A stretch of 36,073 bases of DNA, taken from the NCBI GenBank assembly GCA_002731115.1, contig PBZO01000001.1, forward strand, positions 39,023-75,095. The letters run 5' to 3'. This document shows, piece after piece, positions 3 through 36,073 of the stretch. Numbering within the stretch: the first letter of the stretch is position 1; the number at the start of each line of letters is the position of its first letter. Both the position numbers and the translations under genes were made by a program. Below the pieces are notes generated by a model, which saw only the letters and a program-made list of their open reading frames with translations, was not told the DNA's origin and ran no database searches. This DNA is from Candidatus Pacearchaeota archaeon. GTDB taxonomy: Archaea; Nanobdellota; Nanobdellia; Pacearchaeales; GW2011-AR1.

Positions 3-2426
3 TTCTTATCAATTTTCTCAAAAGAAATTACAGTTACTTATTCTGCAATTTTATTTCCTGCAGTGATGTTTGCATTAACAACAATTGCTTTTTTCCTCTT
101 TGCAAGAATTATATTTTACAAAGAAAATAAAAAAACAAGAAATATAATTGCATTAATTGCAACTAGCTTTTTTGTGCTTATTCCTTCATTATTGCCAAGA
201 ACAATTGCAGGAATCCCTGAGAAAGAATCAGCTGCTTTCTTTTTTATGTTTATTGCCTTCTATTTTTTCATGAAAGCATTTACTTCAAATAATTTGAGAA
301 AGGGCATGATTTTTGGAATTCTTGCAGGAATCTCTACTGCAGGAATGGCCTTAATTTGGGGAGGTGTTCTTTTTATATTCTTTACAATTTCAACTTCTGT
401 CTTGCTCGCATTTATTCTAGGGAAGATCAAGAAAAATGAACTAATTATTTATGCTACCTGGATGATTACTTCTTTTATTGTAATGATGCCCTTCTCCACA
501 AGATATATTTTAAAAAACTTAGTTATGTCAATATCTACTGGATCTGCTATTAGTGTTTTTGTAATTATTAGTCTGAGTTTATTAATCATGAAAACAAATA
601 AACTAGAAAAAATAAGAAAGAAAACAAAACTTCCAGATGAGTTATCTTCTGTAATTATTTCCATCTTTATCTTAATCTTAATTGTCTCAATTAGTCTTGG
701 CCCTAGTTTTATTTTTGAACAAGTACATAATGTAAAAAGTTCACTAATTCAACCAATAGAGAATAGATTTAGTCTAACAGTTGCAGAAAATAAACAACCT
801 TATTTCTTAAACGATTGGAGAAATAATTTTGGACCAATTGTATTTAATATACCTCTATTTTTTTGGTTATTCTTTATTGGGTCTGTTCTTTTATTTAATA
901 ATATGATAAAAAAACTAAAGAAAAAAGAAAAGATAATCTTGACATCTAGCTATCTTATCTTTTTAATTTGTTTAATATTTAGTAGATATGCATCAGGGCA
1001 TATCTTAAATGGGACAAGTAGATTTAGTCTACTAGTTTATTTTGGAGGGTGGTTATTTTTTCTAGGAACTTTTGGATATTTCTATTACAAAATATACAAT
1101 GATGGAGATTTCTCCTTATTTAAAGCCTTTAATTTTAATTATATACTCTACTCGCTAATTTTAACCTTAGGCATTATTGGGGCAAGAGGGGGAATAAGAT
1201 TAATTATGGTTCTTGGAGCAGTAAGTCCTGTTGTTATTGGTTTTTTAATTGTTAAAATATCTAAAAAATATTTTGAGGAAAAAGATGAAGCAATGAAACT
1301 TTTTGTAGGAATTACTGCTGTATTAATTTTAATTGCAGCTGTATTAATTTTAATTGGAAATCCTCTTTTAATGCTTAAGGGAGATAGTTTTTGGGGTTGG
1401 GGGGGATATTTTCAACAAGATAAAATTACTGCAGATTATTTTGCTCCAGGTCCATATCAATGGCAATGGCAAAAAGCAATGAGTTGGGTAAGGAATAATA
1501 CATCTGAAGAGGCTGTTTTTGCACATTGGTGGGACTATGGTTATTGGTTGCAATCAATTGGAAAAAGATCCACTATTCTTGATGGAGGGAATGCAATAGC
1601 ATATTGGAATCACTTAATGGGAAGACATGTTTTAACAGGAGATGATGAAAATAAAGCCTTAGAATTTCTATATACTCATAATGGAACCCATCTTTTAATT
1701 GATTCAACAGAAATTGGAAAATATACTGCATTTTCTAGTATTGGTTCAGATGAAGACTATGATAGAATCTCCTGGATTACTGTTTTCTTAATGGACGAAA
1801 AACAAACACAAGAAACTAAAAATGAAACTATTTATGTCTATACAGGGGGAACTTTGTTAGATGAAGATATAATCTGGGAACAAGACGGAAAAGAGATCTT
1901 TTTACCTAAAAGAAGAGCAGGAGTTGGAGCAATTATTCTAAAGAGAGATAAAGATGAAAAGATAACCAAGGTAGAAGCAATTTTTGTGGATAATGGACGA
2001 CAGTATAGAATCCCTTTAAGATTTGCCTATTTTGATAATGAATTGCATGATTTTAAAGAGGGATTAGATGCAGGAGTTTTCTTATTCCCCAGATTAGATG
2101 CTTTGTCTGGTGGAAGAACTAGTCTTAATGAAATAGGTGCATCAATGTATTTAAGTAGAAGGACTATTCATTCTCAATTAGCTAGCCTGTACTTATTTGA
2201 TCAAAAAACAGATTATTTTAATCTTGTTCACACTGAGAATAGTTTGGTTATTGAAGATATACTGAAACAGGGATTTGATATAGGGGACTTTGTATATTAT
2301 CAGGGATTTCAAGGACCAATTAAAATCTGGGAGATTAAATATCCTTCATATATAAAATTAAATCCGGCTTATTTAGAAACAGATTATCCTGAAAAATTAC
2401 AAGAGTTAAAACAAGGAGAATATTAA
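3..2426 (+). CDS. aglB: Oligosaccharyltransferase STT3/AglB, 5'-truncated by window edge
   Basis: This is the catalytic subunit of archaeal N-glycosylation, an integral membrane enzyme that moves a glycan from a dolichyl-(pyro)phosphate carrier to Asn in N-X-S/T on the outer face of the membrane. The frame is open from base 3, and the tracked start (GTG at 63) lies inside a continuing membrane segment, so the true start is outside the window. About ten hydrophobic segments fill the first ~430 residues. A TVAE motif (ORF residues ~239-242) matches the TIXE-type motif of external loop 5, and WWDYGYW at ~489-495 is the family signature that binds the acceptor sequon. The soluble C-terminal domain follows. 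The N-terminal loop with the catalytic Asp is off-window. The gene heads an operon with the lipid-carrier genes. Family call is certain; glycan identity unknown. Confidence 0.95.
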   Translation, partial: FLSIFSKEITVTYSAILFPAVMFALTTIAFFLFARIIFYKENKKTRNIIALIATSFFVLIPSLLPRTIAGIPEKESAAFFFMFIAFYFFMKAFTSNNLRKGMIFGILAGISTAGMALIWGGVLFIFFTISTSVLLAFILGKIKKNELIIYATWMITSFIVMMPFSTRYILKNLVMSISTGSAISVFVIISLSLLIMKTNKLEKIRKKTKLPDELSSVIISIFILILIVSISLGPSFIFEQVHNVKSSLIQPIENRFSLTVAENKQPYFLNDWRNNFGPIVFNIPLFFWLFFIGSVLLFNNMIKKLKKKEKIILTSSYLIFLICLIFSRYASGHILNGTSRFSLLVYFGGWLFFLGTFGYFYYKIYNDGDFSLFKAFNFNYILYSLILTLGIIGARGGIRLIMVLGAVSPVVIGFLIVKISKKYFEEKDEAMKLFVGITAVLILIAAVLILIGNPLLMLKGDSFWGWGGYFQQDKITADYFAPGPYQWQWQKAMSWVRNNTSEEAVFAHWWDYGYWLQSIGKRSTILDGGNAIAYWNHLMGRHVLTGDDENKALEFLYTHNGTHLLIDSTEIGKYTAFSSIGSDEDYDRISWITVFLMDEKQTQETKNETIYVYTGGTLLDEDIIWEQDGKEIFLPKRRAGVGAIILKRDKDEKITKVEAIFVDNGRQYRIPLRFAYFDNELHDFKEGLDAGVFLFPRLDALSGGRTSLNEIGASMYLSRRTIHSQLASLYLFDQKTDYFNLVHTENSLVIEDILKQGFDIGDFVYYQGFQGPIKIWEIKYPSYIKLNPAYLETDYPEKLQELKQGEY
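1317..1358 (+). repeat. 21-bp in-frame tandem duplication inside aglB
   Basis: Two adjacent copies of a 21-bp unit beginning gctgtattaattttaattg differ by one base near the end. In the reading frame they encode AVLILIA followed by AVLILIG, two heptads in the last transmembrane segment before the soluble domain. This looks like a replication-slippage duplication that lengthens a membrane helix without breaking the frame. Confidence 0.85.
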
Positions 2427-2427
2427 G

Positions 2428-3423
2428 ATGGAACCATTATTAATTATCCCACTAATTTTAAGTTTTTTAATTACTTTATTTTTCATACCTGTCTGGATTA
2501 AAAAAGCAAAACAAATTAAACTTGTTTGGGAAGATATGAATAAAAAAAATAAGACTAAAAAAATTGCGGGATCGGGAGGGATTGTTGTTGTTTTTGGATT
2601 TATTCTAGGTGTTTTAATTTATGTCGCATTAAAAACATTTTATTTTAACTCAACAGAAAATTTAATTGAAGTATTTGCTATTTTAACATCAATCTTAATA
2701 ATATCTGTTGTGGGCTTAATTGATGATCTTTTTGGATGGCAAAAAGGAGGATTATCTAAAAAATCAAGGATAATCTTATTCTTATTTGCAGCAATCCCAC
2801 TAATAGTTATAAATGCTGGAGAATCTAGGATGATTGGAATTGAATTTGGATTATTATATCCTCTATTTTTAGTTCCATTGGGAATTATTGGAGCATCAGC
2901 AACATATAATTTTCTTGCAGGATATAATGGGCTTGAAGCAAGTCAGGGAATCTTAATCTTATCCTCCTTATCATTGATTACTTTTCTTACGGGGAATAGT
3001 TGGCTAAGTTTAATCTCTCTAACAATGGCTATTTGTTTAATTGCATTTTATATACATAACAAATATCCTGCAAAAATCTTCCCTGGAGATGTTTTAACTT
3101 ATTCGATTGGGGCAATGATTGCAATTATTGCTATCTTGGGAAATATTGAAAAAATTGTAGTATTTCTTTTTATTCCATATATTCTTGAAACTATATTAAA
3201 AGTAAGAGGAAAATTAAAGAAGTATAGCTTTGCTAAATTAAACAAGGATGGTGGTTTAGATGTTCCTTATAAAAAATTCTATGGATTAGAACATATATCT
3301 ATTTATTTATTAAAAAAATTCAAAAATAAAGTTTATGAAAAAGATGTTGTTTATCTAATCAATTTATTCCAGATATTAATAATTATTTTGGCATTTATTT
3401 TATTTGGAGGAGAAATATTTTAA
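2428..3423 (+). CDS. Alg7/AglH-type UDP-GlcNAc:polyprenyl-phosphate GlcNAc-1-P transferase
   Basis: A polytopic membrane enzyme of the MraY/WecA/Alg7 (GT4-like PNPT) superfamily that loads the first sugar-1-phosphate onto the polyprenyl-phosphate carrier. Visible landmarks are the GSGG stretch at ~48-51, the LIDDLFGW motif with the paired Asp at 99-100, the NFLAGYNGLE block at 161-170 (the eukaryal/archaeal Alg7 version, FAGxNGLE) and the PGD motif at 219-221. About ten hydrophobic helices span 331 residues, normal for archaeal members. The start has AAGGAG (2413-2418) nine bases upstream and lies one base after the aglB stop, so the two are co-transcribed. The sugar is probably GlcNAc or a derivative by family; that is not provable here. 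Confidence 0.9.
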   Translation: MEPLLIIPLILSFLITLFFIPVWIKKAKQIKLVWEDMNKKNKTKKIAGSGGIVVVFGFILGVLIYVALKTFYFNSTENLIEVFAILTSILIISVVGLIDDLFGWQKGGLSKKSRIILFLFAAIPLIVINAGESRMIGIEFGLLYPLFLVPLGIIGASATYNFLAGYNGLEASQGILILSSLSLITFLTGNSWLSLISLTMAICLIAFYIHNKYPAKIFPGDVLTYSIGAMIAIIAILGNIEKIVVFLFIPYILETILKVRGKLKKYSFAKLNKDGGLDVPYKKFYGLEHISIYLLKKFKNKVYEKDVVYLINLFQILIIILAFILFGGEIF

Positions 3424-4355
3424 TGAAGATAAAAAAATATCTTCCAATAATAGGAATTATTATTTTCTTATATATATTATTTAAATTAGATATATCAAAT
3501 ATATTAAGAGAAATCAGTAATTCAGATATAAATTTTTTATTGATTGCAATACTTCTTATATTTATTTCATTTATAACTCAAACATTAAAGTGGTTTACAA
3601 TTACCAAAATTCAATTAACAAACATTTCATTTATTGAAGCATTTAAAGTCAATATAATGAGTATGTTTTATGGTTTTATTACCCCCTCAAGAATAGGAGG
3701 AATTATCAGAGCAGAATACCTAAGAAAATATAACAATAATAATCTTGGGAAAGGCGTTAGTAATTATGTCTTAGACAAAGTTTTAGATTTAGGTTCTCTT
3801 GCTTTTCTTGCAGGATTATTCTCACTTATGTTTAAAGATTTAGTATCAATTAATTACTTTTATTATTCTCTTTCTGGTTTTATATTAATTGTAATTCTCT
3901 TGATGATATTTAGGGATGAAAAAAGAAGTAGATCTACACTAAGAATAATTTATGTAAAATTGGTTCCGGAGAAGATGAAAGAGAAAGTAAAAAATGGATT
4001 TAATTCATTTTACCAAGATATGCCTAAAAAGAGGTATTTTATTTTATTCTTCTTATTAAATGTCTTAAATTGGGTTGTTTTATATGCATCAACTTTCTTT
4101 ATCGGAATTTCACTCGGAATAGATATTTCTTTTTATTACTTCCTTGCAATTCTACCAATTGCTACCCTTATTGGACAGATACCCATAACTATAAGCGGAT
4201 TGGGAACAAGAGAGGCTGTTATGATTAGTTTATTTGGGGTGATTGGCATAAGTGCTACAAAAGTATTTTCAATGTCATTAATTAGTATATTCCTTGCAGG
4301 AGTAATTCCTGCCTTAATAGGAAGTTTTTTAATTTTCAAAAATAAAGAAAAATAG
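3423..4355 (+). CDS. Flippase-like membrane protein (LPG_synthase_TM / UPF0104 family)
   Basis: A multi-spanning membrane protein of 310 residues resembling the transmembrane domain of lysylphosphatidylglycerol synthase (PF03706/UPF0104). The diagnostic region is YGFITPSRIGGIIRAEYLRK at ~82-101, matching the family's P-x-R-x-G-E/G-x-x-R-x pattern, followed later by a G-x-G-x-R-E element (SGLGTREA). Related archaeal proteins are often encoded beside glycosyltransferases and are suspected of helping lipid-linked sugars cross the membrane; that role is inference. The start overlaps the previous stop by one base (TAATG) with a strong GGAGGAG ten bases upstream, so translation is coupled within the aglB operon. 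Confidence 0.82.
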   Translation: MKIKKYLPIIGIIIFLYILFKLDISNILREISNSDINFLLIAILLIFISFITQTLKWFTITKIQLTNISFIEAFKVNIMSMFYGFITPSRIGGIIRAEYLRKYNNNNLGKGVSNYVLDKVLDLGSLAFLAGLFSLMFKDLVSINYFYYSLSGFILIVILLMIFRDEKRSRSTLRIIYVKLVPEKMKEKVKNGFNSFYQDMPKKRYFILFFLLNVLNWVVLYASTFFIGISLGIDISFYYFLAILPIATLIGQIPITISGLGTREAVMISLFGVIGISATKVFSMSLISIFLAGVIPALIGSFLIFKNKEK

Positions 4356-27509: not shown

Positions 27510-27542
27510 GGAATTATTTTTTTTATAAAAAAGAATTATTCC
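27510..27542 (-). terminator. Possible poly-T terminator with imperfect hairpin
   Basis: Immediately after the stop of the SDR gene the minus strand reads TTCTTTTTT, flanked by an imperfect inverted repeat GGAATAATTC...TAATTCC. Oligo-T runs serve as intrinsic terminators in archaea. Base composition alone could produce this. Confidence 0.35.
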
Positions 27543-28516
27543 TTATGAATATATTCTAAGGGGAGTGTTTTAATTACATCCCAATTTTTATCTACCCACT
27601 TAACACATTGTTCAATTCCTTTATCAAAATCTACTTTGGGTCTCCAATTAAATCTTTCTCTTGCTTTACTTGAATTTAGAATATATTCCTTATCTTGCCC
27701 TTTTCTTTCATCAACTATCTCAGAAAAATCATCAAAATCTTTTCCTATTTTATTAGAGATCTTCCTAACTAGATTATTAATACTAATTCCTGAATCTGGA
27801 GATAAATGATATACTTCCCCCTTATTAGTATCCTCTAATATCTTTAATATACCACTACAATCATCTTTAACATGAAGGTAAGATTTTATTGCTTTTCCTC
27901 CTCCTTGAAGTTGTAATTTCTTTCCTAATTTAGCATAAATTATTGTGCGAGGGATAATCCTAAATAATTGTTGGCAAGGGCCATATACATTAGTAGATCT
28001 TACAAAATTTGCAGGAAAATTAAATTGTTTTACCAAATTTTGTATAAACATATCTCCTGCTGCTTTCGATGATGCATAAGGAGTACTGGGATTATAAGAT
28101 GTATTTTCATCAATTTCATTGCATGAACCATAAACTTCCGGAGTAGAAATCTGAACATATTTCTCAAAGGATTTTATCTTTCTTAATTTATTTGTTAAAT
28201 TAGCAATTCCTAAACAATTAGTACGAAACCAATGTTCTGGATTATCCCAACTTTGTCCAACCATCCCCTGAGCAGCAAAATTAACTACTTTTTTTACATC
28301 TTCTTTTCTAAGAATATTAACTATATTGCTTAAATCATCATTTATATTTTCTTGAAAAAATTTAAATCCTTCTTTACCTTTGTATGGAAGAAAGATCGAA
28401 TTAGATTCTGGAGATCTGCTAATTCCGATTACTTTATAATCAGTATTTTCCAAAAGGTGGTCAACAAAATGAGCTCCTGAAAATGAATTACTTCCAATAA
28501 CTGCAACTTTCTCCAT
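27536..28516 (-). CDS. Nucleotide-sugar 4,6-dehydratase/epimerase (extended SDR)
   Basis: A 326-residue extended SDR close to dTDP-glucose/GDP-mannose 4,6-dehydratases. The NAD site is GSNSFSGAHF (8-17), a variant of GxxGFxG in which the third Gly is Ser. Further landmarks are VNFAAQGMV, QISTPEVYG (122-130), the catalytic Tyr147-x3-Lys151 in PYASSKAAGD, VRSTNVYGP and SYLHVKDDC. These match the nucleotide-sugar dehydratase branch better than the SDR at 10184. It would make a 4-keto-6-deoxy intermediate that the DegT aminotransferase at 30769 could aminate; this link is inference. It is transcribed separately from a TATA box 22-29 bases upstream. Confidence 0.86.
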   Translation of the reverse strand: MEKVAVIGSNSFSGAHFVDHLLENTDYKVIGISRSPESNSIFLPYKGKEGFKFFQENINDDLSNIVNILRKEDVKKVVNFAAQGMVGQSWDNPEHWFRTNCLGIANLTNKLRKIKSFEKYVQISTPEVYGSCNEIDENTSYNPSTPYASSKAAGDMFIQNLVKQFNFPANFVRSTNVYGPCQQLFRIIPRTIIYAKLGKKLQLQGGGKAIKSYLHVKDDCSGILKILEDTNKGEVYHLSPDSGISINNLVRKISNKIGKDFDDFSEIVDERKGQDKEYILNSSKARERFNWRPKVDFDKGIEQCVKWVDKNWDVIKTLPLEYIHKE

Positions 28517-28555: not shown

Positions 28556-29689
28556 TTAAATAAAATTAATATGTAGCGGACGTTTTCCTTTTGGTTCTTC
28601 TAATTTAATTTTCCCTTGTTTTAAATCCCATAAATACTCGTTAATTCTATCTTGGCAGCACATGACTCCGCAATCAGTATGAACATTATGTTTATTAGAT
28701 GCTAGATGATTTACAACTTCCCAATATTTATCACTTTTTAAGATATCTTTAAAAGGTTCTTCTGTGATATTTCCTATATGGTGTTTTTGGTATTTTGAAT
28801 TAAAAAGTTGGCCACATGGAGCAACTAATCCTGAACCGGATAATTGCATAAGAAAAGGGGTTCCATAACATTTAGAATATTTCTTTCTCCCTCCACTTAG
28901 AATTTTAGACCATTTAGCCTTAACAAAATAATTTTCATCAGAATATGTTTCAGCTTCTTTTAAAATATTAATTAAATCAGATTCAAGATATTCTTGATAA
29001 TCTGATCCAAGCTTTCTTTTTTCATCATCACTACAATGTTTTATGACTAAGTAATCTACTCCAAGGTTTTTTCCTAATTTTGTAAGAGGAATAACATCTT
29101 CCTTAAACTTTGGCATAAATACCATTTGCATTCCAATTGTTACATCTAATTTTTTTTCTTTTTTAATTTTAACACTCTTTTTAATATTCTCTATAACTTT
29201 ATAGAACTCTTCTTCCTTACAACCATGAATTTCCGAATATCTTTTTGGGATCCCTGCAGAAATATTAAATCTGAACCAGGTGGAAGAAGATAATATGCTT
29301 CCCAATTCTTCTTCCTTTAAAAGAGCACCATTTGTTGCAACAGCCATGTCTATTCCATTCTTTTTTCCATAAACTAAAGTCTCTGCAAAATGAGGGGAAA
29401 CCGTGCTTTCGCCATCTCCCATAAGAATTACTCCTTTAACACCCATTTCTGCACAATCATCTAGAAATCTAAAGGTGTGTTTCTTAGACATCTTAGTATT
29501 ATCATTTTCTTGCAATTGACTATAACAATAAGTGCATTTGTAATTACAAGCTCTTGTTAAAGCATAATCTATTGTAATGGGGACAATTCTTTCACCCCTT
29601 AACCATGCTTCAACTCTATCTTTATGCCAAGCTAATTTATGCCCATCCAAAATTATTGGTTCTTCTCTCTTTTTTCCTTCTTTGTTCAT
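28556..29689 (-). CDS. Radical SAM/SPASM enzyme, paralogue A
   Basis: A 377-residue radical SAM enzyme with TRACNYKCTYCYSQ (C48, C52, C55), a GDGEST segment in place of GGEP and a C-terminal SPASM-like cysteine group (KCYGTPF, APCGQLF, DCGVMCC). It is clearly paralogous to the next gene upstream: both start with a WHKDRVEAW / YHPERVSEW element before the core, share a YSEIHG / YSEVHG segment and a D-x-TIG-x-Q strand, and end in NFI. It has its own leaderless promoter. The shared architecture with divergent active-site loops suggests two related reactions on the same or similar sugars. Exact chemistry unknown. Confidence 0.87.
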   Translation of the reverse strand: MNKEGKKREEPIILDGHKLAWHKDRVEAWLRGERIVPITIDYALTRACNYKCTYCYSQLQENDNTKMSKKHTFRFLDDCAEMGVKGVILMGDGESTVSPHFAETLVYGKKNGIDMAVATNGALLKEEELGSILSSSTWFRFNISAGIPKRYSEIHGCKEEEFYKVIENIKKSVKIKKEKKLDVTIGMQMVFMPKFKEDVIPLTKLGKNLGVDYLVIKHCSDDEKRKLGSDYQEYLESDLINILKEAETYSDENYFVKAKWSKILSGGRKKYSKCYGTPFLMQLSGSGLVAPCGQLFNSKYQKHHIGNITEEPFKDILKSDKYWEVVNHLASNKHNVHTDCGVMCCQDRINEYLWDLKQGKIKLEEPKGKRPLHINFI

Positions 29690-29731: not shown

Positions 29732-30772
29732 TTATATAAAGTTATCATGAGATCTTGGATTCTTTACCCTATGGAGATATCTATTAAGAGGATCTAATCT
29801 ACACCCTTCCCTGCATCCTTCAATATTTATCTTTTTGCTAATCTCTTTCCTTTTTTTCCCTTCCCAAATTTCTGAAAAAGAATTTTTATATAAATTCCCG
29901 TAAGTAAATTTTCCCTCTTTATAAAATAAATTGCAGGGGATAATATTCCCTTTTGAATCTATTAATGTAAAAAAAGGAAGTCCATGACATTCAGAATAAT
30001 TAATTCCTTCATTAATTCTTTTTGCTGTTTGTCTTCTAAATAAAATCTTAAAATTATCTGAATTAAATCCTGCTAATTTTCCTTCAAGTTTATTAAATTC
30101 ACTAATTCCTATTGCATAATTATTATTACTATTTGGGTGTTTAGAATAAGGTTTAATTTGAAGATTATCTACTCCAATATCTCTTAATATCCTTGCAAGT
30201 TTTGGGGCCTCATCTATATTTTGGGATATTGCTAAAAATTGGATTCCTATTGTTGTATCTAAATTATTCCTTATCTTATACTCAGTACATCTTTCTATAT
30301 TTCCTATGACTCTAGAGAAATCTTTCTCACTTGTTCCATGAACCTCTGAATAATTTTTAGAGCTACCTGAATTAACACTAAATCTTAACCATGAAAGATG
30401 GGGTAAAATTTGACTTATCTTTTTATCATTAAAAGGAACGCCATTTGTGGTTATAGAAACATCCATCCCTTCTTGTTTTGCAGTTTTTACAAATAGACTT
30501 ATCTCCTTATGTAATAAAGGTTCTCCTTCTCCTGCAAACATTACTGATTTTATCCCTTGTTCCCCCATATCTTTTAATGTTTGCAACATAACATCCTTAT
30601 CAATAAAATCTTTTCCATATTCTAAATAAGAAAGCGCACAAAATCCACATCGATGATTACAAGTATTTGTGGGTCCTATTTCTGCATAAATTGGAGCGCA
30701 ATCTCCTTTTTCTTCCCATTCAGAAACTCTTTCAGGGTGATACATTAGTTTATGATTATCTACATCAGTCAT
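29732..30772 (-). CDS. Radical SAM/SPASM enzyme, paralogue B
   Basis: A 346-residue radical SAM enzyme with TNTCNHRCGFCALSY (C38, C42, C45), FAGEGEPLLHKE as the GGEP-equivalent and SPASM-like cysteines in ECHGLPF, IPCNLFY and GCREGCRLDP. It shares its N-terminal H-x-x-RV-x-x-W element, the YSEVHG segment and the C-terminal NFI with paralogue A. Its ATG overlaps the stop of the DegT aminotransferase gene (ATGA), so the two are translated together with the GT9 upstream. That coupling suggests it works on a sugar handled by the aminotransferase. Function inferred from context only. Confidence 0.87.
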   Translation of the reverse strand: MTDVDNHKLMYHPERVSEWEEKGDCAPIYAEIGPTNTCNHRCGFCALSYLEYGKDFIDKDVMLQTLKDMGEQGIKSVMFAGEGEPLLHKEISLFVKTAKQEGMDVSITTNGVPFNDKKISQILPHLSWLRFSVNSGSSKNYSEVHGTSEKDFSRVIGNIERCTEYKIRNNLDTTIGIQFLAISQNIDEAPKLARILRDIGVDNLQIKPYSKHPNSNNNYAIGISEFNKLEGKLAGFNSDNFKILFRRQTAKRINEGINYSECHGLPFFTLIDSKGNIIPCNLFYKEGKFTYGNLYKNSFSEIWEGKKRKEISKKINIEGCREGCRLDPLNRYLHRVKNPRSHDNFI

Positions 30773-31878
30773 TTTTTATTTTTAAAGAATTTATGAATAG
30801 TCTCTATTACATATTCTACTTGTTCATTAGTTAACTCTGGATAAATTGGGAGAGATAAAATCTCTTTACATATCTTCTCTTGCAGGGGAAGATGATAATT
30901 AAGGAGGTTTAACTTTTGATTATGGTATAATGGTTTTGAAAAATGAGAAAATATCTCTATTCCATTTAGTTTTAGAAAATCAATAAGTTCTTGATGATAA
31001 GATGTACGAATAACATAGGAGTTATATGTATCAAAAAAATCTTGTGGTGATGGGGAAGGTGGAAGTATCAAGGGCAAATCTGCTAATCTTTTAGAATAAA
31101 TAGATGCTATTTCTCTTCTTCTTTTTATCCAATTATCAAGTAGTTTAAATTTTATATTTAATAAAGCTGCATGAAGATTATCTAATCTACTATTATAACC
31201 AAAATCAAAGATATCTCCTCTTGTTTTTTGGCCATGGTTTCTCAAATATCTTATTTTTTCAGCTATTTCATCATTATTTGTAGAAATAAATCCACCGTCT
31301 CCAGCACAACTAAGAGTTTTTAATGGATGTGTGGAAAAACATCCTGCAAGTCCAAAACTCCCTGCTTTCTTACCTTTATATAACGAGCCAAGAGATTGAC
31401 AGGCATCTTCTATGATTATTAAATTATGTTTTTGTGCTAGCTCCATTAATTTACCCATATCACATATTCTTCCATTTAAATGAACAGGAATTATTGCTTT
31501 TGTCTTAGAGGTTATTGCTTTCTCAACTTCTTCCATGTCCATATTAAAGTCATCCTTAATATCAACTAAAATTGGTTTAGCTTTTCTATGAACTATTGCT
31601 GCAATTGTTGCAATAAAAGTATGTGCAACAGTAATAACTTCATCTCCTTCTTTTATCCCTGCAACTTCTACAGAAAGGGATAAAGCATCTGTTCCAGAAT
31701 TAACTCCTATAACATGTTTTACTCCAAGGTATAATGCCATATTATTCTCAAATTTTTCAACATCATTTCTAAGAATAAAACTTCCTTCATTCATAACTCT
31801 CTTAAATTCTTCTGTAATTTCCTGCTCTGAATTCTTAAATTGCAAAGAAAGATCAATAAAGGGAACTTTCCACTTCAT
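30769..31878 (-). CDS. DegT/DnrJ/EryC1/StrS-family PLP sugar aminotransferase
   Basis: A 369-residue PLP-dependent aminotransferase that typically adds an amino group to a keto nucleotide sugar. VPFIDLSLQF at the N-terminus, GVNSGTDAL at 58-66, IIEDACQSLGS with the cofactor-contacting Asp158, and FSTHPLKTL with the PLP lysine Lys187 are all present, as is the YNSRLDNLHAALL element after it. Length is normal. It overlaps the upstream GT9 by 26 bases and the downstream radical SAM by four, so the three genes form a tight unit. The dehydratase at 27536 is a plausible supplier of its keto-sugar. The exact sugar is unknown. Confidence 0.92.
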   Translation of the reverse strand: MKWKVPFIDLSLQFKNSEQEITEEFKRVMNEGSFILRNDVEKFENNMALYLGVKHVIGVNSGTDALSLSVEVAGIKEGDEVITVAHTFIATIAAIVHRKAKPILVDIKDDFNMDMEEVEKAITSKTKAIIPVHLNGRICDMGKLMELAQKHNLIIIEDACQSLGSLYKGKKAGSFGLAGCFSTHPLKTLSCAGDGGFISTNNDEIAEKIRYLRNHGQKTRGDIFDFGYNSRLDNLHAALLNIKFKLLDNWIKRRREIASIYSKRLADLPLILPPSPSPQDFFDTYNSYVIRTSYHQELIDFLKLNGIEIFSHFSKPLYHNQKLNLLNYHLPLQEKICKEILSLPIYPELTNEQVEYVIETIHKFFKNKK

Positions 31879-32827
31879 TTTTTAATAAATTTTTTACCTC
31901 CTTATAAACAGTTTTTGGAGAAATAGATTCCATACACAATTCTTCTTCATTACATCTTACATCAAAACAGGGAATACACTTTTTATATCCTTCTGGCAAA
32001 ATTGCTTTTCCTCTGCCATAAAAATGAACTTCTTTATGAGGTGTTGGTCCAAAAAGCCCCAATACTTTCTTCTTAAGAGCTATTCCTAGATGCATACCTA
32101 AACTATCATTTGTGGCAACTAACCTACAAGAATCAATCCAATCAATATATTTATTTAGATTTGTAAGGATTTCATCAGATTGCTTATCTTGCCTACTTAC
32201 TTTAAGTCCATCTTTGACTAAAATTGATTCTAATTCATCCCAATTTTTTTTAGACCAGCTTTTTATGGGCCACTTAGGGCCAATTTGAGTATTCAACCCT
32301 ACATCATAAATTTCCTTATTATTTGGTTTATAACCTAAGACATATTCCTCCTCTTCCCATTTCTTACCAACAATTTCAAACAAAAGTTTTTGAGCAGTTT
32401 GCAAATTATTTTTTTTAAGATGCGGGCTAATACTCAAGGATAATATATCAAAGGCATTATCAAATGCCCCTGTTTTTCCCAACTTCCGATCAAATCTAAA
32501 TCCTTTTTTATTCCAAGCATCTATTTTATTTGCAAATCTACAAATATCCTTATCCTTTTCTAGATTAATTAAAGTATCGAATTCTTCATCTAATAAATGT
32601 ATTGCATTTTCAAAATCAAGATATAATAATCTATCAATATATTTATTTTGTTTTAATAAAGGAAATGCAGATTTATCTGTTAACCATGTAACATTACTTT
32701 TTTTATAAAGATTTAATAATGCTGTTGATCTTAAAATATCTCCTAAACTAACTTTCTTTAGATGATTTTCCACATCTAAAATCTCAGAATAACCTGTTTT
32801 AATAATTAATACTCTCTCCTTTTCCAT
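31853..32827 (-). CDS. GT9 (heptosyltransferase-family) glycosyltransferase
   Basis: A GT-B glycosyltransferase of family 9, the family of bacterial LPS heptosyltransferases. The pattern includes SLGDILRSTALL near the N-terminus, NTQIGPKWPIKSWS in the linker, ATNDSLGMHLGIAL and VLGLFGPTPHKEV in the donor domain, and the cysteine-rich tail KKCIPCFDVRC...LCM common in this family. The tracked start is a TTG at 32878; the ATG at 32827 is preferred because a TATA box lies at the standard distance and the protein then begins KERVLIIKTGYSE, the expected first strand. It leads the DegT / radical SAM unit. In an archaeon the sugar need not be heptose. Confidence 0.88.
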   Translation of the reverse strand: MEKERVLIIKTGYSEILDVENHLKKVSLGDILRSTALLNLYKKSNVTWLTDKSAFPLLKQNKYIDRLLYLDFENAIHLLDEEFDTLINLEKDKDICRFANKIDAWNKKGFRFDRKLGKTGAFDNAFDILSLSISPHLKKNNLQTAQKLLFEIVGKKWEEEEYVLGYKPNNKEIYDVGLNTQIGPKWPIKSWSKKNWDELESILVKDGLKVSRQDKQSDEILTNLNKYIDWIDSCRLVATNDSLGMHLGIALKKKVLGLFGPTPHKEVHFYGRGKAILPEGYKKCIPCFDVRCNEEELCMESISPKTVYKEVKNLLKNEVESSLY

Positions 32828-32849
32828 GTAAATGCAAGATAAAGATGAA

Positions 32850-32857
32850 TTTAAAAA
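32850..32857 (-). promoter_or_regulatory. TATA box for the GT9-DegT-radical SAM operon
   Basis: TTTTTAAA, 23-30 bases upstream of the ATG at 32827, and inside the N-terminal extension of the tracked ORF, which it argues against. Confidence 0.6.
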
Positions 32858-32880
32858 GATTATGTATCTAAAATTCAATC

Positions 32881-34143: not shown

Positions 34144-34160
34144 CATATCTCATAATTTAG

Positions 34161-34176
34161 TTGTTTTATAAAACAA
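34161..34176. promoter_or_regulatory. 16-base perfect palindrome centred on the TATA box of the 34143 gene
   Basis: TTGTTTTATAAAACAA reads the same on both strands and contains TTTATAAA (34165-34172), 22-29 bases upstream of the ATG at 34143. A dimeric regulator bound here would block TBP, so it is a candidate operator as well as the promoter. It lies in the 84-base gap that also drives the ThDP operon. Confidence 0.5.
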
Positions 34177-34197
34177 TACTATCCCAAATACATAAAT

Positions 34198-34205
34198 CTT
34201 TAAAA
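34198..34205 (+). promoter_or_regulatory. TATA box for the ThDP enzyme operon
   Basis: CTTTAAAA, 23-30 bases before the ATG at 34228. Confidence 0.6.
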
Positions 34206-34227
34206 AGACAGCCATTTAGAAAAATTT

Positions 34228-34818
34228 ATGAGTATTACAAAAGAATATCTTATTAATTTTGAAGAAGAGATAAAAAATTTATTTTTAAATAGAAAAATAA
34301 AAGGACCAATTCATTTGAGTGTTGGTAGTGAAGATTATCTAATTAAAATTTTTAAAAAAATAAAAGAACAAGATTGGGTATTTTCTACGCATAGGCCCCA
34401 TTACCATGCATTATTAAAAGGCATACCTAGAGAAAAAGTAAAAGAAGAAATACTTGCAAAAAGAAGTATGCATATCAGTAGTAAAGAGTATAAATTTTTT
34501 ACTTCAGCAATTGTTGGAGGGAATTTGCCTATAGCTGTTGGAACTGCAATGGGGATTAAAAGAAAAGGCCTTGATGAAAAAGTATGGTGTTTTACAGGTG
34601 ATATGGCTGCAGAAACAGGAATTTTTCATGAATGTGTAAAATACTCTAAAGGACATAATTTACCCATAACTTTTGTAGTTGAAGATAATGGATTGGGAGT
34701 TGCAACCCCTACAAGAGAGGTATGGGGAATTACAGATAACGCTAAATCTAATATTACAAAATTTAAATATTCTAGAAAATATCCCCATGTAGGTTGTGGG
34801 AAATCTATAACTTTCTAA
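34228..34818 (+). CDS. Miniature ThDP-binding subunit (E1-alpha/transketolase-N-like)
   Basis: A 196-residue protein matching the ThDP-diphosphate-binding half of 2-oxoacid dehydrogenase E1-alpha or transketolase. GPIHLSVGSE at ~26-35, FSTHRPHYHALLKGI at ~52-66, the GGNLPIAVGTAMG strand-turn and the metal/ThDP motif GDMAAETG...VEDNGLG (GDG is GDM here, with the closing Asn kept) are in the right order. Family members are usually 300-370 residues, so this is a stripped-down form without the long C-terminal part. It starts a three-gene operon; the next gene begins TAAAATG and supplies the partner half. It probably makes or breaks a carbon-carbon bond next to a carbonyl; substrate unknown. Confidence 0.8.
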   Translation: MSITKEYLINFEEEIKNLFLNRKIKGPIHLSVGSEDYLIKIFKKIKEQDWVFSTHRPHYHALLKGIPREKVKEEILAKRSMHISSKEYKFFTSAIVGGNLPIAVGTAMGIKRKGLDEKVWCFTGDMAAETGIFHECVKYSKGHNLPITFVVEDNGLGVATPTREVWGITDNAKSNITKFKYSRKYPHVGCGKSITF

Positions 34819-34819
34819 A

Positions 34820-35347
34820 ATGATTTATAAAGATGAATTAACAAAAGCTATGAAAATTCTTGCAAAAGATAAAAAAGTTTTATTTTTAGGTCAAACAGTG
34901 GGATATAAAGGAAGTGCCCTGCATGAGAGTCTAGAAAAGATATCTAAATCAAAAAGAATAGAACTCCCTGTAATGGAAGATACTCAAATAGGAATCTCTA
35001 CTGGATTAAGTTTACAAGGATATATCCCTGTTTCTGTTTTTCCAAGATTTGATTTCTTAATTTGTGCTACAAATCAATTAGTTAATCATCTAGAAAAAAT
35101 AAGTGAAATGACTAATAATGAATTTAATCCAAAAGTAATAATACGGACTGCTGTTGGTGCAACATCTCCTTTATATCCAGGAGTTCAACACTGTTCAGAT
35201 TATACAGAAGCATATAAATTAATGTTAAAAAATATTGAAGTAGTAAAACTAGAAAATAAAGAAGATATAGTCCCTGCATATAAAAAAGCATTAAAAAATA
35301 AAAAATCTAGTTTATTAGTTGAATTTTCTAATAAATATAATACCTAA
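34820..35347 (+). CDS. Miniature ThDP partner subunit (E1-beta/transketolase-pyrimidine-like)
   Basis: A 175-residue protein matching the pyrimidine-binding half of E1-beta (PF02779). KKVLFLGQTVGYKGS near the start, ELPVMEDTQIGISTGLSLQGYIPV with the conserved catalytic Glu that activates ThDP, and PKVIIRTAVGA...GVQHCSDYTEAY correspond to the known beta-subunit blocks. The C-terminal transketolase_C domain is absent; full beta subunits are about 325 residues. It is coupled on both sides by TAAAATG junctions to the alpha-like gene and the following cobalamin-type radical SAM gene. The pair should form an alpha2beta2-type carboligase or decarboxylase without lipoyl E2; no E2/E3 gene is in the window. 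Confidence 0.82.
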   Translation: MIYKDELTKAMKILAKDKKVLFLGQTVGYKGSALHESLEKISKSKRIELPVMEDTQIGISTGLSLQGYIPVSVFPRFDFLICATNQLVNHLEKISEMTNNEFNPKVIIRTAVGATSPLYPGVQHCSDYTEAYKLMLKNIEVVKLENKEDIVPAYKKALKNKKSSLLVEFSNKYNT

Positions 35348-35348
35348 A

Positions 35349-36073
35349 ATGTCATCAAATTTAGACTTACTTTTAATTAATGTTGGAGGAACAAAAAAGA
35401 AAGTATATCAAGATTTAAGCAAAGATTTTTCTGCAATAGAACCTCCATTTTGGGCTGCATTAACAGCCGGGTTTATCAGAAATAAGGGCTATAATGTAAA
35501 AATAATAGATGCAAATGCAGAAAACTTAACTCATAAGGAAACAGCAAGAATTGTAAAAGAAGATAATCCAAAATTAACTAATATTGTTGTTTATGGTCAA
35601 CATCCTTCAGCATCAACACAATTAATGACAGGTGTTGGAGAATTATCTAATGAAATAAAAAAAATAGAACCAAATAGAAAAATAATCTTAACAGGACTTC
35701 ACCCATCTGCACTGCCTAGAAGAACCTTAAAAGAAGAAAATTGTGATTTTGTCTGTCAAGGAGAAGGATTTTACACTCTACAAGGATTGTTAGAAAACTC
35801 TAAACCGAATAATATCCCTGGATTATGGTGGAAAGAAAATGGAAATATAAGAAATACTCCAAGAGAAAAAAATATGCAAAATCTCTCTAAAGAATTAGAT
35901 AGTGTTGCATGGGATTTATTGCCAATGGATAAATATAAAGCTCATAACTGGCAGTGTCTAGATAACTTGGATTCAAGATTTGGATATGCATCTATCTCGA
36001 CAAGTCTTGGTTGTCCTTTTACATGTGATTTTTGTTCTATTCATGAAACTTTTGGAGAAAAAAGAATAAGAAC
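35349..36073 (+). CDS. Cobalamin-binding-type radical SAM enzyme, 3'-truncated by window edge
   Basis: This gene is missing from the ORF track because it runs off the window: 241 codons are visible with no stop. The ATG follows the preceding stop as TAAAATG. The B12-domain pattern is PPFWAALTAGFIRNKG, IVVYGQHPSASTQLM, IILTGLHPSALP and FVCQGEGFYTL, and the radical SAM cysteines C222, C226 and C229 lie in TSLGCPFTCDFCSIHE. No DxHxxG motif is present. It is co-transcribed with the miniature ThDP pair, so it likely acts on the same metabolite. About half the protein is outside the window. Confidence 0.85.
   Translation, partial: MSSNLDLLLINVGGTKKKVYQDLSKDFSAIEPPFWAALTAGFIRNKGYNVKIIDANAENLTHKETARIVKEDNPKLTNIVVYGQHPSASTQLMTGVGELSNEIKKIEPNRKIILTGLHPSALPRRTLKEENCDFVCQGEGFYTLQGLLENSKPNNIPGLWWKENGNIRNTPREKNMQNLSKELDSVAWDLLPMDKYKAHNWQCLDNLDSRFGYASISTSLGCPFTCDFCSIHETFGEKRIR

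Follow-up and report, generated by a model that had tools for sequence, protein, structure and literature searches.

ThDP enzymes that add a pyruvate-derived unit to keto sugars have been described in single-protein and two-subunit forms. YerE, a single protein of the decarboxylase family, adds such a unit to a 3,6-dideoxy-4-keto sugar in yersiniose (PMC12247030). Among E1-type pairs, KbDH-alpha/beta have been shown to do equivalent chemistry in vitro with pyruvate and ketones, and AviB1/B2 and Pau11/12 have been shown or proposed on genetic grounds to carry out equivalent branching (PMC12247030, PMC4425429). Together with Plm8/Plm9 and EvdU5/EvdS3, these pairs make up the alphaKADH2 group, in which a split E1-type alpha and beta are encoded with nucleotide-sugar genes and the pair has been proposed or shown to branch a keto sugar with two carbons derived from pyruvate. 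The known members lie in antibiotic clusters, and those with a readable length are full-length (325 and 345 aa for Pau11 and Pau12, PMC4425429). Placement of the PP (diphosphate-binding) and Pyr (pyrimidine-binding) domains on separate small proteins is known from the decarboxylase-family pairs ComDE and RhiEF (AzcB/AzcC as deposited) (PMC12141560).

Here we analyzed a window of 36,073 nt (positions 39023-75095 of contig C1) from a 485-kb archaeal bin that is 80.5% complete. Near its end lies an E1-type alpha and beta pair encoded in a nucleotide-sugar cluster, as in the alphaKADH2 systems, to which we liken it by architecture and context, not by sequence. In contrast with those systems, it lacks the C-terminal parts, and its relatives occupy surface-glycan-type loci with radical SAM enzymes and His-type DegT proteins. 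We found no prior description of such a minimal pair in the open-access literature. The features of the window that bear on the pair are collected in Table 1.

Table 1. Features of the alpha/beta locus and of the neighboring sugar genes (window coordinates).
Feature	Position	Strand	Evidence
SDR, nucleotide-sugar 4,6-dehydratase-like, motif TPEVYG...YASSK	27536..28516	-	TIGR01181 1.8e-65 (sub-threshold)
Radical SAM/SPASM protein of the family flanking the second clade of alpha/beta pairs	28556..29689	-	438 bits, family HMM
Radical SAM/SPASM protein, same family as the 28556..29689 protein	29732..30772	-	481 bits, family HMM
DegT/DnrJ aminotransferase, Lys type, not His-type dehydratase	30769..31878	-	PF01041 1e-106; motif STHPLKTLSCAGDGG
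Family 9 glycosyltransferase	31853..32878	-	PF01075; similar proteins (cluster c20) also near pairs in other archaea
Divergent 81-bp intergenic spacer preceding alpha, presumed to hold the promoter	34147..34227	.	sequence; inference
Alpha subunit, PP (diphosphate) half of E1-type ThDP enzyme, 196 aa	34228..34818	+	PF00676, AF2 model, Mg/ThDP motif
Alpha/beta junction, TAA-A-ATG	34819..34819	+	sequence
Beta subunit, Pyr (pyrimidine) half, catalytic Glu53, 175 aa, without transketolase C-domain	34820..35347	+	PF02779, AF2 model, E53
Beta/radical SAM junction, TAA-A-ATG	35348..35348	+	sequence
B12-binding radical SAM protein, N-terminal 241 aa in window	35349..36073	+	PF02310 2.7e-15; family found beside alpha/beta pairs elsewhere

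The initial annotation had described a three-gene operon with TAAAATG at both junctions. Both junctions read as described and the three genes are joined, but the proposed length of the operon did not hold: the B12-binding radical SAM gene, which starts at the ATG at 35349 and carries the PF02310 domain and the beginning of PF04055 within the window, continues past the window end to 488 aa (L002:2472-3938), and is followed on the same strand by a Nudix gene, a second radical SAM/SPASM gene and a split transketolase with N (282 aa) and C (314 aa) parts.

As had been claimed from the open reading frames, the two small proteins correspond to the PP and Pyr halves without other domains. The alpha chain matched PF00676 (E1_dh, 8e-24) and, weakly, PF02775, while the beta chain matched PF02779 (Transket_pyr, 2.5e-7); the transketolase C-domain PF02780 was absent from beta, and its only copy in the genome belongs to the separate split transketolase. 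AF2 models of each chain taken singly matched the alpha and beta chains of PDH and BCKDH E1, with the alpha model (pLDDT 90.4) finding human PDH E1 alpha as its best PDB match (TM 0.84 to query) and the beta model (pLDDT 95.4) superimposing on PDH E1 beta with a TM of 0.89 (to query) and an rmsd of 2.1. AzcB/AzcC structures were also among the structural matches to the beta model.

The residues needed to hold the cofactor are conserved across phyla. Beta E53 aligns with the catalytic Glu of E1 beta and is present in 54 of 54 relatives, and the Mg/ThDP motif of alpha retains Gly124 (54/54), an acidic residue at position 125 (54/54) and Asn154 (53/54). The motif on alpha has the form GDM rather than GDG, as it does in most of the aligned alphas, and Asp125 is replaced by Glu (GEM for GDM) in 9 of 54 sequences (L063, L090, L126, L059, L074, L117, L089, L061 and L119). 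While these departures at the Mg site could be taken to mean that the pair is catalytically dead or regulatory, the conservation of the acidic residue, of Asn154 and of the catalytic Glu argues against this reading, which we regard as very improbable. Near its C-terminus, alpha also carries a conserved YPHxGxG motif, for which MAFFT alignment against full-length E1 alpha gave no settled mapping position; we suspect that this motif replaces the catalytic-loop His of E1 alpha after an internal deletion. The catalytic Glu, the retained cofactor motif and the E1-like single-chain models support the view that the pair is a genuine minimal two-part ThDP enzyme.

We assessed how widely the pair recurs. 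A single-sequence scan of the named genomes returned no relatives, while a family-alignment scan found 144, and the short alpha occurred in 15 places in 14 of the 378 genomes of the class. Relatives were found in Pelagibacter, Verrucomicrobia, Chloroflexi, Burkholderiales, one cyanobacterium, CPR bacteria, Methanophagales and DPANN archaea. Among 92 non-redundant alphas, the small beta was adjacent in 86 and fused in 2, with median lengths of the homologous parts of 199 aa for alpha and 178 aa for beta; of the four exceptions, one lies at a contig end and three (L082, L096 and L115) form a single clade with no recognizable small beta alongside. This recurrence is far above chance, and the gene order is likewise repeated elsewhere. 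In contrast, the suggestion of a chemistry particular to archaeal glycans was not supported: most of the relatives found are bacterial and some are from phages, so the pair is not specific to archaea.

In the tree, the alpha family stood apart from full-length E1 alphas (support 0.93) and fell into two main clades, one with SPASM partners (GDG; DPANN archaea and phages) and a larger one containing the window's protein (GDM or GEM). Fused alpha-beta chains occur in archaea and cyanophages, and their alphas group together. In cyanophages S-SM2 (SSM2_198) and P-TIM68, these family members lie in a sugar cluster (L138 7983-9191 and L139 8049-9194), near a phosphoheptose isomerase, and are annotated as "transketolase central region-containing protein", a name given by weak homology in records that report no function. 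A 735-kb uncultured phage encodes adjacent beta, SPASM radical SAM and alpha genes (L140 6376-8609).

These data bear on whether the two chains are a remnant or subunits of an ordinary pyruvate or branched-chain dehydrogenase complex, whose E1 alpha and beta are their nearest named models. The scores lie far under the cut-offs of those models (106 bits against 394 for TIGR03182 and 54 against 321 for NF006667), and PF00198, the E2 domain, was absent from the genome at its 80.5% completeness, while it was detected in 10 of 14 controls. The separation from full-length E1 alphas, a truncation common to about 90 loci and the sugar context likewise argue against this explanation, which we consider extremely unlikely. 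The same shared truncation and the near-constant pairing exclude gene decay, as well as halves of an ordinary pyruvate dehydrogenase in misassembled contigs.

We next considered the genes around the pair. Within 8 kb at 91 loci, and with family names taken from curated models whose cut-offs most of the scores did not reach, we counted an HddA-like GHMP kinase at 56 loci, DegT at 54, a B12-binding radical SAM protein at 47, an HddC-like NTP (nucleotidyl)transferase at 43, SDR5 at 42, and GmhA-like, Fcl-like SDR and Gmd-like SDR proteins at 23, 20 and 18, respectively. Nucleotide-sugar genes surround the pair across many bacteria, and likewise in the archaeal Methanophagales, where almost all of these genes follow one another in a single run at one locus (L051). 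This supports the earlier placement of the pair in sugar loci. In 50 of the 52 loci in which it could be read, the neighboring DegT carried His in place of the PLP-binding Lys (motif SF/YY-x-AH...GG-type), a substitution that sets nucleotide-sugar 3-dehydratases, ColD and E1 among them, apart from aminotransferases (PMC8987622). The presence of these 3-dehydratases and of 4,6-dehydratase-like SDRs near pairs fits the proposed carboligation onto a keto sugar. His-type DegT is mostly missing from the second clade, with its SPASM partners in archaea and phages, and the acceptors there may therefore differ. In a Verrucomicrobiia bin (L079, about 1909-3468), the cluster adjoins genes that read as FliW-, CsrA- and flagellin-like, which suggests that it makes a flagellin glycan.

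The nearby GmhA, HddA, GmhB and HddC-like genes, and the phosphoheptose isomerase near the fused cyanophage enzyme, would also be consistent with a transketolase-like activity, in which the pair transfers a two-carbon ketol among sugar phosphates, yielding for example heptulose or octulose phosphates for a neighboring heptose-type pathway. However, its sequence is closer to E1 than to transketolase, and at several loci, the window's operon among them, there is a split transketolase besides the pair; this is likewise a two-gene ThDP enzyme but larger and with the C-domain kept. We judge this activity quite unlikely. In four marine loci (L064, L067, L121 and L125), a separate split transketolase accompanies the pair, joined in most of these loci by an acetolactate-synthase-like gene, such that two or three different ThDP enzymes occur per sugar cluster.

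Alternatively, the pair could be a plain 2-oxo-acid decarboxylase that resembles ComDE and RhiEF in function and supplies an aldehyde to another enzyme of the locus. The minimal PP plus Pyr architecture that it shares with them and the AzcB/AzcC matches of the beta model point in this direction, but sequence and fold are those of E1, profile searches returned E1, DXS and transketolase with no match to RhiEF, ComDE or AzcBC, and the neighboring genes resemble makers of keto sugars rather than users of aldehydes. We therefore think a plain decarboxylase unlikely.

The association of the pair with radical SAM enzymes was upheld, since B12 and SPASM radical SAM genes recur beside pairs. The window's B12-binding protein scored 719 bits against the HMM of the pair-neighboring family, compared to at most 129 bits for the other B12-binding radical SAM proteins in the stretch examined. 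Among the 378 genomes of the class, this family was present in 8 and the alpha in 14, with both in 6 where 0.3 would be expected (hypergeometric P 2e-8, a significance that the kinship of the genomes inflates). Because the association reaches into bacteria, with 47 of 91 loci across the whole set, the data support a functional tie between the B12-binding radical SAM protein and the pair despite the kinship of the class genomes. The protein is homologous to the HpnJ and BchE models, a homology that does not fix its role. The 485-kb bin was found to contain 15 radical SAM genes, and 14 of them lie in one 37-kb glycan island (window about 9100-36073 plus L002 to about 13650; G000:C1:48145-84930), where B12 and SPASM types are intermixed with glycosyltransferases.

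The window's own locus departs from the common pattern, in that its DegT is of the Lys type and contig C1 yielded no His-type DegT. The SDR at 27536-28516 is a candidate source of a 4-keto sugar within the window. The sole His-type DegT of the bin sits on a foreign-looking contig, and the deviant tetranucleotide make-up of contigs C14 (L135) and C2 (L137) (correlations to C1 of 0.65-0.79 and 0.54-0.61, respectively, compared to about 0.92 within C1) led us to discount their His-type DegT and GHMP genes as parts of the pathway. Both contigs are probably foreign to the bin, and C14 was judged phage-like by gene content.

We consider it rather likely that the pair is a minimal E1-type keto-sugar carboligase whose product, a branched sugar with a tertiary alcohol, would go into a surface glycan. 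This reading follows from the His-type DegT 3-dehydratases, from the known E1-type branching pairs and from the pathway logic of YerE-like systems (yersiniose, erwiniose), in which a 3-dehydratase yields a 3-deoxy-4-keto sugar that a ThDP enzyme then branches for a surface polysaccharide; YerE differs from the present pair in not being a two-subunit enzyme of the E1 family. We infer that the chains form an alpha2beta2-type ThDP enzyme cut down to its two cofactor-holding domains, descended from the 2-oxo-acid dehydrogenase E1 family (alphaKADH2) and operating without an E2 partner. The pair would decarboxylate a 2-oxo acid, probably pyruvate, and attach the acyl carbanion to a nucleotide-linked (deoxy)keto sugar at its ketone; in most relatives this sugar would be supplied by a 4,6-dehydratase-like SDR, a His-type DegT 3-dehydratase or both; further SDRs and the radical SAM enzyme may then modify the branched product. 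Counting against this carboligase reading are the lack of a His-type DegT in the window's locus and the separate transketolase and acetolactate-synthase-like genes in some loci, as another ThDP enzyme of such loci could do the branching.

E1-type pairs that branch sugars are already known, and on our best reading it is the minimal form without C-terminal parts that is new. More broadly, the chance seems to us even that a so far undescribed clade of E1-type carboligases that retain just the PP and Pyr domains, and that occur in archaea, many bacterial phyla, giant phages and cyanophages, acts along a conserved route with His-type 3-dehydratases and dedicated B12 or SPASM radical SAM enzymes to make branched surface sugars. 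If so, the pair would show the minimum of an E1 enzyme that ThDP carbon-carbon chemistry needs, and would offer a compact catalyst type, encoded by two genes or naturally fused, for making tertiary alcohols. Branched sugars would then be predicted for the sugar clusters of phages, whose copies of the gene bear only a transketolase label, and for surface or flagellar glycans in abundant organisms, namely Pelagibacter, Verrucomicrobia, Burkholderiales and DPANN archaea.
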